This document shows, one piece after another, positions 44,841 through 46,597 of a DNA stretch of 64,000 bases (positions are counted from its first letter, which is position 1; the number at the start of each line of letters is the position of its first letter). Made by a program: the position numbers and the translations under genes. The stretch covers positions 105,529-169,528 of the forward strand of contig NZ_MBFM01000002.1 in NCBI RefSeq assembly GCF_001696715.1, in the 5' to 3' direction. The notes beneath the pieces were generated by a model that did no database searches, had not been told where the DNA came from, and was given only the letters and a program-made list of their open reading frames with translations. Source of the DNA: Thauera phenolivorans. Lineage in GTDB: Bacteria > Pseudomonadota > Gammaproteobacteria > Burkholderiales > Rhodocyclaceae.

Positions 44841-44855
44841 ACAAGAGCCGTGCCA
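44841..44855 (-). promoter_or_regulatory. -24/-12 (sigma-54) promoter of cydPABX-ybgE
   Basis: On the minus strand TGGCACGGCTCTTGT, differing from the TGGCACG-N4-TTGC consensus only at the last base. The first 14 bases equal those of the aldehyde dehydrogenase promoter at 21521-21534. Start of transcription would be near 44829. The divergent gene encodes a sigma-54 activator, which strongly supports the call. Confidence 0.75.
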
Positions 44856-44963
44856 GACCGGCCGATCTCGGAATTCTTGATGGAAATCAAAACAATGGGC
44901 GCGGCGGGGAGAGTTCGCGCTTGACCGCCGGACTGCCAGGAAGACACACTGGTGGCATCGATC

Positions 44964-44979
44964 CGGTCAGGAGTGACAG
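44964..44979. promoter_or_regulatory. Candidate activator binding site upstream of cyd
   Basis: GTCA (44966-44969), GGAG, TGAC (44974-44977), centred about 118 bp upstream of the cyd -24 box. Its right half GAGTGACAGA is identical to the palindrome at 46489-46508. It also contains the ribosome binding site (GGAG) of the activator gene, so binding could reduce the activator's own translation or transcription. Confidence 0.5.
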
Positions 44980-44982
44980 AAG

Positions 44983-46338
44983 ATGGCTGCAGATCCGCGC
45001 CCGCTGCCCGAGCTGGTTTCCTTCCTCGAGAGCCTGCCCGAACCGCACATCCTGTGCGGTCGCGACTTCCGGATCATCGCCGCCAACGCCGCCTACCGAG
45101 AGGTGTGCGCGGCTGGCGAATCGGTGGTCGGACGCACCTGTTACGACGTTTCCCACCACTACACCGTACCGTGCGACCGCGCAGGCGAGTCCTGTCCGCT
45201 GGCGAGGAGCCTGCAGTCCGGTCAGCGCGAGCGGGTGCTGCACCTGCACCACACGCCCGCCGGCGAGGAGTATGTGAACATCGAGCTGTCCCCGGTGCGC
45301 GACGGCGAAGGCGAGATCGCCTGGTTCGTCGAGAAGATGGAGCCGCTGGCGGTGTCGCGTGGGGTGGCGGCGAATCCGGCCCTCATCGGCCATTCGGAGG
45401 CGTTTCGCGCGATGCTCGAACTGGTCTCGCGCGTGGCGCCCTCGGACGCGAGCGTGCTGCTACAGGGCGAATCCGGCACCGGCAAGGAGCTGGTCGCCCA
45501 CACGGTACACGAGGCGAGCCGGCGCGCCGATCATCCCTTCGTGGTGGTCGATTGTTCCGGCCTGCCGGAGACCCTTTTCGAGAGCGAGCTGTTCGGCCAC
45601 GAGCGCGGCGCCTTCACCGGTGCGACCGCGCGCAAGCCCGGCCTGGTGGAGGCGGCGAGCGGCGGCACGCTGTTCCTCGACGAGATCGGCGACATTCCGC
45701 TCGGCATGCAGGTCAAGCTGCTCCGCCTCCTCGAGACCGGTACCTACCGGCGGGTCGGCTCCACCGAACTGCGCCGGGCCGATATCCGCCTGGTTTCGGC
45801 GACCCACCGACCGCTGCAGCAGATGATCGCCGAAGGCCGTTTCCGCCAGGATCTCTACTACCGCATCAACACCTTCCCGATCACCGTGCCGCCGCTGCGG
45901 GATCGCGAAGGCGACCTGTCGCTTCTGGTCGACTCGCTGCTCAAGCGGGTCGCACCCCAGCGCTCGCTCTCGCTGACACCGGCGGCGCTGCGCGCGCTGC
46001 TCGCCTATCGCTTTCCCGGAAACGTGCGCGAGCTGCGCAACGTGCTCGAGCGCGCGAGCCTGATGTGCGACGGCGAGCAGGTCGGCGTCGAACATTTGCC
46101 GATGGAACTTACCGCGTCCGCGCGGGGTGAACTGCCCGACGAGGACGTCGTGCCGCGGCTGCATCCGACTTTCCACCGCGCAGCCGAGGAGGACGCGCTC
46201 GACCTCGAGGAAGTCCAGCGCCAGGCCCTGATGCGCGCGGTACGCAGTCACCGCGGCAGTCGCCGCGACCTCGCGCGCCGGCTCGGAATCAGCGAACGCA
46301 CCCTGTATCGACGCCTGCGCGAGCTCGGCGAGGGCTGA
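44983..46338 (+). CDS. PAS-domain sigma-54-dependent activator (likely regulator of cyd and Rieske/OTR operons)
   Basis: Activates sigma-54 promoters. It has 451 residues. An N-terminal PAS domain (about 10-120) contains Cys53, His58, His59, Cys64 and Cys71 in CYDVSHHYTVPCDRAGESC, a Cys/His set suited to binding a metal, Fe-S cluster or haem or to thiol redox sensing. The AAA+ domain has Walker A GESGTGKE (162-169), intact GAFTGA (209-214) and Walker B FLDE (231-234). A Fis-type helix-turn-helix lies at about 425-446. There is no receiver domain. It is divergent from cydP and followed by the Rieske gene, each with a -24/-12 type promoter. Confidence 0.92.
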   Translation: MAADPRPLPELVSFLESLPEPHILCGRDFRIIAANAAYREVCAAGESVVGRTCYDVSHHYTVPCDRAGESCPLARSLQSGQRERVLHLHHTPAGEEYVNIELSPVRDGEGEIAWFVEKMEPLAVSRGVAANPALIGHSEAFRAMLELVSRVAPSDASVLLQGESGTGKELVAHTVHEASRRADHPFVVVDCSGLPETLFESELFGHERGAFTGATARKPGLVEAASGGTLFLDEIGDIPLGMQVKLLRLLETGTYRRVGSTELRRADIRLVSATHRPLQQMIAEGRFRQDLYYRINTFPITVPPLRDREGDLSLLVDSLLKRVAPQRSLSLTPAALRALLAYRFPGNVRELRNVLERASLMCDGEQVGVEHLPMELTASARGELPDEDVVPRLHPTFHRAAEEDALDLEEVQRQALMRAVRSHRGSRRDLARRLGISERTLYRRLRELGEG

Positions 46339-46368
46339 CCGCCACGCTGCAGCCGTATCACCGGCGGG

Positions 46369-46433
46369 GTCGCCGCGTTCGCCGCTCCTGCCTCGCCGCG
46401 CCGTCCCTCCCAGTAGCGGCGGTGACCGCCGCG
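46369..46433. repeat. REP-like element pair
   Basis: Two copies with opposite stems: 46369-46391 (minus strand reads CAGGAGCGGCGAACGCGG) and 46411-46433 (plus strand CAGTAGCGGCGGTGACCGCC). They lie just after the activator's stop, within the 415-bp gap before the Rieske gene. Confidence 0.5.
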
Positions 46434-46488
46434 TCAAGTCCGGGCGCGCGAGGTTCTGCCCTTCACCCGGCTGCCACCTCGGGTCACG

Positions 46489-46508
46489 GTCTGTCATGAG
46501 TGACAGAC
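46489..46508. promoter_or_regulatory. Perfect palindrome: activator site upstream of the Rieske operon
   Basis: GTCTGTCA-TGAG-TGACAGAC has 8-bp arms pairing perfectly around a 4-base spacer. Its centre lies about 85 bp upstream of the -24 box at 46582, the classic distance for a sigma-54 enhancer site. It shares ten bases with the site at 44964-44979 near the activator's start. Confidence 0.75.
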
Positions 46509-46581
46509 AAGGCAGGACGCACGCCTGCTCGCGGCGCAGGCAAGCCGTCACAGTGCGCGAAACGATGCCGCATTCCGAGTC

Positions 46582-46597
46582 TGGCACGAACCCTGCT
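46582..46597 (+). promoter_or_regulatory. -24/-12 (sigma-54) promoter of the Rieske/octaheme/cytochrome b operon
   Basis: TGGCACGAACCCTGCT matches TGGCACG-N4-TTGC(A/T) except for one base, with invariant GG and GC at the right spacing. Transcription would begin near 46608, leaving a leader of about 146 nt before the Rieske ATG. The rest of the leader shows no ORF or clear structure. Confidence 0.8.

Follow-up and report, generated by a model that had tools for sequence, protein, structure and literature searches.

A FisR-type sigma-54 activator in Thauera phenolivorans and its probable joint control of a cytochrome bd operon and a second Rieske gene

Introduction

In Escherichia coli, the cytochrome bd genes cydAB are under FNR/ArcA control. 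The sigma-54 activator FisR of Cupriavidus pinatubonensis JMP134, said to have been described by Li et al. in 2017, reportedly carries three conserved cysteines and controls sulfide-oxidation genes (pdo-sqr). Here we analyzed a window of 64,000 nucleotides (nt) from Thauera phenolivorans (contig NZ_MBFM01000002.1, positions 105,529 to 169,528 of the forward strand), in which a gene for a FisR-type activator lies between a cytochrome bd operon and a gene for a second Rieske protein. A first-pass annotation of this window had proposed that the bd oxidase operon and a Rieske/octaheme module form a joint regulon of this activator. The best reading of our sequence comparisons is one sulfane-sulfur-responsive sigma-54 regulon that would join sulfide oxidation, bd oxidase and the second bc1 Rieske protein.

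FisR is described as a sensor of reactive sulfur whose three conserved cysteines become cross-linked (PMC9774590, PMC12170894). Cysteine sensing of reactive sulfur and control of sulfur-oxidation genes are also described for SqrR/BigR (PMC12170894), and another source names these proteins as ArsR-family repressors (PMC7315123). The latter further reports that cytochrome bd resists sulfide, that sulfide induces cydAB in E. coli, M. tuberculosis and Acinetobacter baumannii, and that FisR of A. baumannii activates pdo1-sqr-tauE on sulfide (PMC7315123). FisR and a sulfide-resistant bd oxidase are each already known. Our literature search, judged largely without full texts, found no report of direct FisR-type or sigma-54/RpoN control of cydAB; when control of cyd by NifA in Azoarcus was looked for, the one passage found concerned an FNR-like regulator in Azotobacter.

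Results

The activator gene, the sites around it and the second Rieske gene are located as follows.

44983..46338, plus strand: FisR-type sigma-54 activator gene (domain search, cysteine triad, alignment, tree)
44964..44979, no strand: putative operator 1, CGGTCAGGAGTGACAG, differing from CTGYCAN4TGRCAG at one position
46489..46508, no strand: putative operator 2, GTCTGTCATGAGTGACAGAC, 20-bp palindrome with 8-bp arms
44840..44855, minus strand: predicted cyd -24/-12 sequence, TGGCACGGCTCTTGTT, ahead of cydP-cydA-cydB (motif and conservation)
46582..46597, plus strand: predicted Rieske -24/-12 sequence, TGGCACGAACCCTGCT (motif and conservation)
46754..47341, plus strand: second Rieske protein gene (sequence comparison)

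Judged by its domain architecture, its cysteine triad and its relationship to an activator encoded beside a persulfide dioxygenase (PDO) and a sulfide:quinone oxidoreductase (SQR), the protein is a FisR-type sigma-54 enhancer-binding protein. It contains PAS_4 (residues 15-115), Sigma54_activat (AAA+, 134-300) and HTH_8 (Fis helix-turn-helix, 408-447) domains, and the cysteines C53, C64 and C71, spaced C53-x10-C64-x6-C71, are located within the PAS_4 regulatory region. All three are invariant in the sequence alignment. Scanning species genomes at the protein level yielded 31 loci. Of these, 21 are close relatives (L001-L021) with 61-80% identity, whose titles read Thauera, Methyloversatilis, Pseudothauera, Rhodocyclaceae, Burkholderiales and, in one case, a Gammaproteobacteria bin; the other 10 are sigma-54 regulators of more distant kinship. 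The triad was present in 21/21 close relatives, in all four plasmid-collection loci fetched (L052-L055, with L053 a near-duplicate of L052), in L111 and L112, and in 29/29 phylum loci, which were taken from 39 phylum matches other than the window's own in a search that had already selected full-length similarity; in L115 the triad region lies beyond the end of the locus. It was missing from 14/14 other sigma-54 regulators. The activator of Cupriavidus metallidurans (L052), 53% identical and with the same cysteine spacing, is divergent from a PDO-type protein and SQR. All 57 FisR-type sequences formed one clade (FastTree support 0.948), and the presence of sqr, rhodanese and -24/-12 sequences near the activator agrees with a FisR-type gene context. 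NorR and NifA identities were rejected, as the scores of both models were far under their curated cut-offs (NF003451, 308 bits vs. 476; TIGR01817, 319 bits vs. 529). The genome carries one copy of rpoN.

Operator 1 ends 3 nt ahead of the activator start and lies 108 nt from the cyd -24 element, and the inner 16-mer of operator 2 lies 75 nt from the Rieske -24 element. The arrangement described in the first-pass annotation was recovered throughout: the activator gene stands between two -24/-12 sequences, GTCA-N4-TGAC occurs twice in the window, once upstream of each promoter (44966-44977 and 46493-46504), the right half is identical at both sites, with GAGTGACAGA common to operators 1 and 2, and the second site is a perfect palindrome with 8-bp arms. 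Shuffling gave an expectation of 0.75 GTCAN4TGAC per window, and 21 of 100 shuffles reached two. TGGCACGGCTCTTGTT and TGGCACGAACCCTGCT each have one mismatch to TGGCACN5TTGCW, a pattern that, at up to two mismatches, is not enriched in the window (20 found vs. 23.8 expected in shuffles). Because these counts are near shuffle level, it is conservation, not counts, that carries the case. The second Rieske protein is 76% identical to the Rieske protein of the genome's bc1 operon, which is encoded beside cytochromes b and c1.

In the relatives, -24/-12 sequences were accepted if they scored 22.5 or more out of 25.5, on the minus strand up to 420 nt upstream and on the plus strand up to 800 nt downstream of the activator. 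A minus-strand promoter lay upstream in 16 of the 21 close relatives (11 at 124-129 nt, the others at 134-367 nt) and a plus-strand promoter downstream in 13. All nine relatives with cydA adjoining the activator had the minus-strand sequence, at a distance of 124-129 nt from its start. The plus-strand sequence was present in each of the 11 relatives whose Rieske gene follows the activator directly (in L005 as two separate matches). Rieske was found anywhere in the locus in 17/21, and in L009, where it is displaced, a -24/-12 sequence and a one-mismatch operator precede it. Pairs of operator and promoter, with up to two mismatches, stood on the cyd side in six of the nine relatives with cyd; for the Rieske side the count was nine of 11. 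In an alignment of 12 upstream sequences, the motif columns had a mean identity of 94% vs. 63% elsewhere; when the motif was shifted rigidly at random 20,000 times (188 distinct shifts, the unshifted one included), 0.57% of the shifts reached this mean. The conserved operator form is CTGYCA-N4-TGRCAG, in which N4 differs between species. Conservation at orthologous loci had been named beforehand as a check, and both palindrome and -24/-12 sequences proved conserved at cyd and Rieske loci (9/9 and 11/11 promoters). Joint control of the two operons by one activator, as originally proposed, is thus the best reading of the conserved putative operators and promoters.

The divergent neighbor of the activator is cyd in the window and in L001, L004, L006, L007, L009-L011, L013, L019, L111 and L112. 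Elsewhere it is sqr (L008, L012, L021), tdt (L091), PDO (L092), or prx with a DsrE-like gene, DUF2141-tdt lying farther on (L005). At L092, a pdo-sqr locus of an order member, CTGCCA-N4-TGGCAG is accompanied by additional half-sites and by a -24/-12 sequence that is weaker (score 21); the activator there is 65% identical to that of C. metallidurans. Outside the window's order, activator and cydAB are also divergent in Pseudoalteromonas (L054, L055) and at two loci of the same class (L093, L096). As these loci lie in a different part of the tree, the activator-cyd pairing may have had more than one origin.

Genome-wide, TGTCAN4TGACA with up to one mismatch was found 18 times vs. 9 for the reversed control, and CTGYCAN4TGRCAG, at the same stringency, 23 times vs. 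27. The relaxed operator alone is therefore background, and we rejected it as a genome-wide predictor. Fifteen of the 23 places were examined, and three had a -24/-12 sequence (score at least 21) at 55-130 nt: those of Rieske, cyd and a persulfide dioxygenase operon. The only two perfect operators in the genome lie ahead of Rieske and of this last operon (Prx-DUF6858-DsrE-like-DUF2141-SLAC1-PDO). Across 25 loci, window included, and with two mismatches allowed, the activator flanks (23.7 kb) contained 22 pairs vs. five in the remaining 324.7 kb, an approximately 60-fold enrichment that is a description, since the consensus came from the same related loci. The five outside pairs precede genes of the same kinds, namely the displaced Rieske (L009), DUF2141-tdt (L005) and metallo-beta-lactamase-fold genes in L012, L013 and the window (52556-52571), those of L012 and L013 being related to the window's. 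A strict pair pattern gave eight matches in seven of 395 family genomes vs. none for the reversed control. Six of the eight stand beside a FisR-type gene: the window, re-finds of L004 and L019, and three new loci (L111, L112, L115). L111 and L112 come from another genus; their target is cydP-cydA, and a perfect operator with extra half-sites lies 60-90 nt from the cyd -24 element. The scan for operators next to -24/-12 sites that the first-pass annotation had suggested thus recovered pairs at cyd, Rieske and the PDO operon.

In the distant PDO operon (L174), the perfect operator is followed 122 nt on by TGGCACGGGGATTGCG as the -24/-12 sequence. The operon encodes a peroxiredoxin, DUF6858, a protein without Pfam match that we take to be DsrE-like, DUF2141, a SLAC1-family protein and PDO. 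By sequence comparison, its last gene is for an ETHE1/PDO-type metallo-beta-lactamase, a putative persulfide dioxygenase; it matched ETHE1 (4chl, E = 8e-21), closer PDB chains being named only metallo-beta-lactamase-type, and shares 63% identity with the protein encoded next to SQR in C. metallidurans. A further unit was found within the window.

52556..52571, minus strand: possible further -24/-12 sequence, GGGCACGTCAATTGCT, with a two-mismatch operator 114 nt away
52655..52701, no strand: half-site cluster CTGTCA..CTGCCA..CGGCAG..CTGCCA upstream of GGGCACGTCAATTGCT, no full consensus operator
52111..52521, minus strand: NitroFeMo-Co-domain protein behind GGGCACGTCAATTGCT (Pfam)
51351..52181, minus strand: ETHE1-like metallo-beta-lactamase-fold protein (PDB match, E = 1e-21; Pfam just under cut-off)
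50355..51329, minus strand: SBF-family transporter (Pfam)

This unit (52571-50355, minus strand) is a possible fourth member of the regulon. Separately, the window holds a second sigma-54 pair, in which TGGCACGGCTCTTGAT at 21519-21534 (minus strand) is divergent from a long sigma-54 activator open reading frame at 21693-23663 (plus strand). The gene behind TGGCACGGCTCTTGAT is presumably aldehyde-dehydrogenase-like; both genes were named from the translation, and the activator also had a search match.

The cyd side of the window contains the following features.

44877..44890, no strand: perfect FNR-type box, TTGATGGAAATCAA, in the interval from the cyd promoter to operator 1
44613..44810, minus strand: cydP-like small protein, 65 amino acids, named from position only
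43067..44623, minus strand: cydA (family profile)
41910..43052, minus strand: cydB (family profile)
41770..41883, minus strand: cydX-like small open reading frame, matching annotated CydX of L054
41468..41773, minus strand: ybgE-like cyd-operon protein, matching annotated YbgE of L054
40007..41359, minus strand: SQR, with mitochondrial SQR as its nearest PDB match (E = 6e-79)
39654..39995, minus strand: small hydrophobic protein after sqr, no Pfam match
39027..39581, minus strand: rhodanese-domain protein, signal peptide judged by eye

Both subunits of the bd oxidase were confirmed (PF01654, E = 2e-177; TIGR00203, 506 bits, cut-off 117), and the cydP-like protein had no match in Pfam or to the annotated CydP of L054. 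SQR has a Tat-like leader, judged by eye, and its gene is presumably co-transcribed with cyd. An inverted repeat, ATAA-N8-TTAT, lies just ahead of sqr in the gap behind ybgE (41428-41443, minus strand); a test of nine other sqr loci did not recover it, and it was dropped as a candidate.

The FNR-type box is unique in the window (0.00 expected). The five other Thauera cyd loci (L001, L004, L006, L007, L019) have an exact box in the same position; none was found in L009, L010, L011, L013, L111 or L112, nor anywhere else in the 338 kb of these loci. This suggests that low oxygen is a second input to cyd in Thauera. Sigma-54 control of cyd had been set against the FNR/ArcA textbook pattern in the first-pass annotation. 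The conserved -24/-12 sequence favors the sigma-54 part of that claim, but the contrast with FNR was drawn too strongly, because the cyd promoter region also carries a perfect match to the FNR-type box.

Two genes of a cytochrome module follow the second Rieske gene.

47454..49043, plus strand: octaheme cytochrome, tetrathionate reductase family TIGR04315 (lineage-specific addition)
49040..49681, plus strand: cytochrome b561-type partner of the octaheme protein (domain search, neighborhood)

The octaheme protein scored 645 bits against TIGR04315, above the cut-off of 375, and matched PDB 1sp3 (E = 1e-120). It was found in one of the 21 close relatives (L015) and at one further locus (L090). 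A search of 399 order genomes gave 43 matches in 35 genomes. We looked at 22 octaheme contexts from the order: activator and Rieske accompany the octaheme gene in the window and in G264 (L090), whereas the 20 others fetched have neither in range. The partner cytochrome b is directly behind the octaheme gene in 18 of 20 fetched loci, and L148 and L152 end at a contig edge. We therefore rejected the octaheme protein as a core regulon partner, since the pair is usually found without the activator; the module that the first-pass annotation had counted into the joint regulon is an occasional passenger. In the window, the stretch that separates Rieske from octaheme showed neither a sigma-70-like promoter nor a plus-strand terminator, which makes read-through from the predicted Rieske promoter plausible in this genome. 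At L160, from another order member, octaheme and cytochrome b genes lie directly behind cydPABX-ybgE, with no FisR-type gene in the 15 kb covered at this locus.

Discussion

From the domains, the triad, the kinship to the PDO/SQR-side activator, the operators and promoter sequences, their conservation and the gene order, we infer sensing, binding, activation and co-transcription of sqr with cyd. We consider it likely that the FisR-type activator senses sulfane sulfur, binds both operators and switches on cydP-cydAB, with sqr and rhodanese behind, together with Rieske. The inducing signal, on which the first-pass annotation was silent, is suggested by the recognizable targets, namely SQR and rhodanese behind cyd and the PDO operon elsewhere. 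Sulfide-derived sulfane sulfur would be sensed via the Cys53/Cys64/Cys71 triad, and the activator on CTGYCA-N4-TGRCAG operators would turn both sigma-54 promoters on. SQR would pass sulfide electrons to quinone and form persulfide, which would be removed by the persulfide dioxygenase from the distant operon with its own operator and -24/-12 sequence. Sulfide blocks heme-copper oxidases, and bd oxidase would meanwhile keep quinol oxidation going; the extra Rieske protein may replace the bc1 subunit under sulfide conditions. Because operator 1 ends so close to its start codon, the activator may also repress its own gene. In the Thauera loci with cyd, low oxygen would enter as a second input through the FNR-type box.

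A number of results weigh against this proposal. At a score of 22.5, the upstream promoter is missing in L002, L003, L014, L016 and L021, and the downstream one in L009, L011, L014, L015, L017, L018, L020 and L021. Operator 1 itself carries one mismatch, and no operator-promoter pair was found on the cyd side of L009, L011 and L013 or on the Rieske side of L005 and L006. The pair test at up to two mismatches is also failed by C. metallidurans (L052; -24/-12 score 22, operator with two mismatches) and by Pseudoalteromonas L054 (one-mismatch operator, but a score of only 20) and L055; in L093 and L096, where the activator is divergent from cyd, the -24/-12 sequence is weak (score 20) and half-sites are absent. 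Twelve of the 20 loci fetched from the phylum search showed no match to any tested sulfide, cyd or Rieske gene. The strict pair pattern matched only three of 22 genomes of the genus, and its order-wide count, four matches (one the window) vs. two for the control in 300 genomes, is uninformative. With a consensus derived from related loci, the enrichment figures are not independent tests, and the tree with the FisR clade does not include the C. pinatubonensis JMP134 protein itself. Finally, sqr may have its own control, given the inverted repeat ahead of it.

Some of these results bear on other explanations. The regulon could be real and the triad sense another signal, such as thiol redox, nitric oxide or a metal, with sulfide genes as one of several outputs. 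A PAS domain with clustered cysteines could bind other ligands, a peroxiredoxin and an SBF-family transporter are among the candidate targets, and the 12 phylum loci in which no tested gene was found point the same way. We nevertheless regard this as unlikely, given NorR and NifA scores far under the cut-offs and recognizable neighbors across species that are SQR, PDO, rhodanese and DsrE-like genes. FisR proteins from other systems are reported to respond to sulfane sulfur (PMC9774590, PMC12170894).

Alternatively, operator 1 could be purely autoregulatory, with cyd mainly under FNR-type control and the Rieske operon as the sole true target. Operator 1 is the weaker of the two operators and abuts the activator start, and a perfect FNR-type box occupies the same region in the window and in the five other Thauera cyd loci. 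This explanation appears improbable, as the cyd -24/-12 sequence is kept in all nine relatives with adjacent cyd, L111 and L112 place their perfect operator and extra half-sites close to the cyd -24 element, and L009-L011, L013, L111 and L112 keep the -24/-12 sequence without an exact FNR box. As for chance, short palindromes and GG-N10-GC-like motifs are what a G+C-rich genome could supply, in line with the shuffle-level -24/-12 matches in the window and the one-mismatch operators below their reversed control genome-wide. The data argue strongly against it: position and sequence are kept over many species, pairs concentrate in the activator flanks, and the family scan gave eight matches vs. 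none, so that we give chance almost no weight.

The sulfane-sulfur-responsive regulon would matter in several respects. Sensor, operator, promoter and oxidase stand side by side in many genomes, which makes the link between sulfide and cyd directly testable; it would explain when a second bc1 Rieske gene is likely to be used, and the operator is defined precisely enough to search for the remaining regulon members. More tentatively, and at somewhat short of an even chance, the FisR-type sensor could govern, through sigma-54, a whole respiratory switch that in the presence of sulfide brings in SQR, PDO, a sulfide-tolerant bd oxidase and a replacement Rieske protein for bc1. Some lineages would add an octaheme reductase of sulfur or nitrogen oxides, and low oxygen, acting on the FNR-type box, would be a second input to cyd. 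If true, a regulator linking sulfide to cydAB would be named and the octaheme enzyme, whose role is unclear, placed in the sulfide response.

The window activator resembles FisR of JMP134 in being a sigma-54 activator with three conserved cysteines. It differs in its putative flanking targets, the bd operon and the second Rieske gene, PDO being encoded in a distant operon, whereas the reported targets of JMP134 FisR are sulfide-oxidizing genes. In A. baumannii, the accessible part of the report names no regulator for cydAB, which by locus numbers lies far from fisR (PMC7315123); unlike there, cyd in the window has its own putative FisR-type operator and -24/-12 sequence. SqrR/BigR share the proposed cysteine-based sulfur sensing with the window activator but are repressors, not sigma-54 activators. 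The FNR-type box in the Thauera cyd promoter region recalls FNR/ArcA control of E. coli cydAB, whereas the conserved promoter here is of the sigma-54 type with a predicted enhancer operator.

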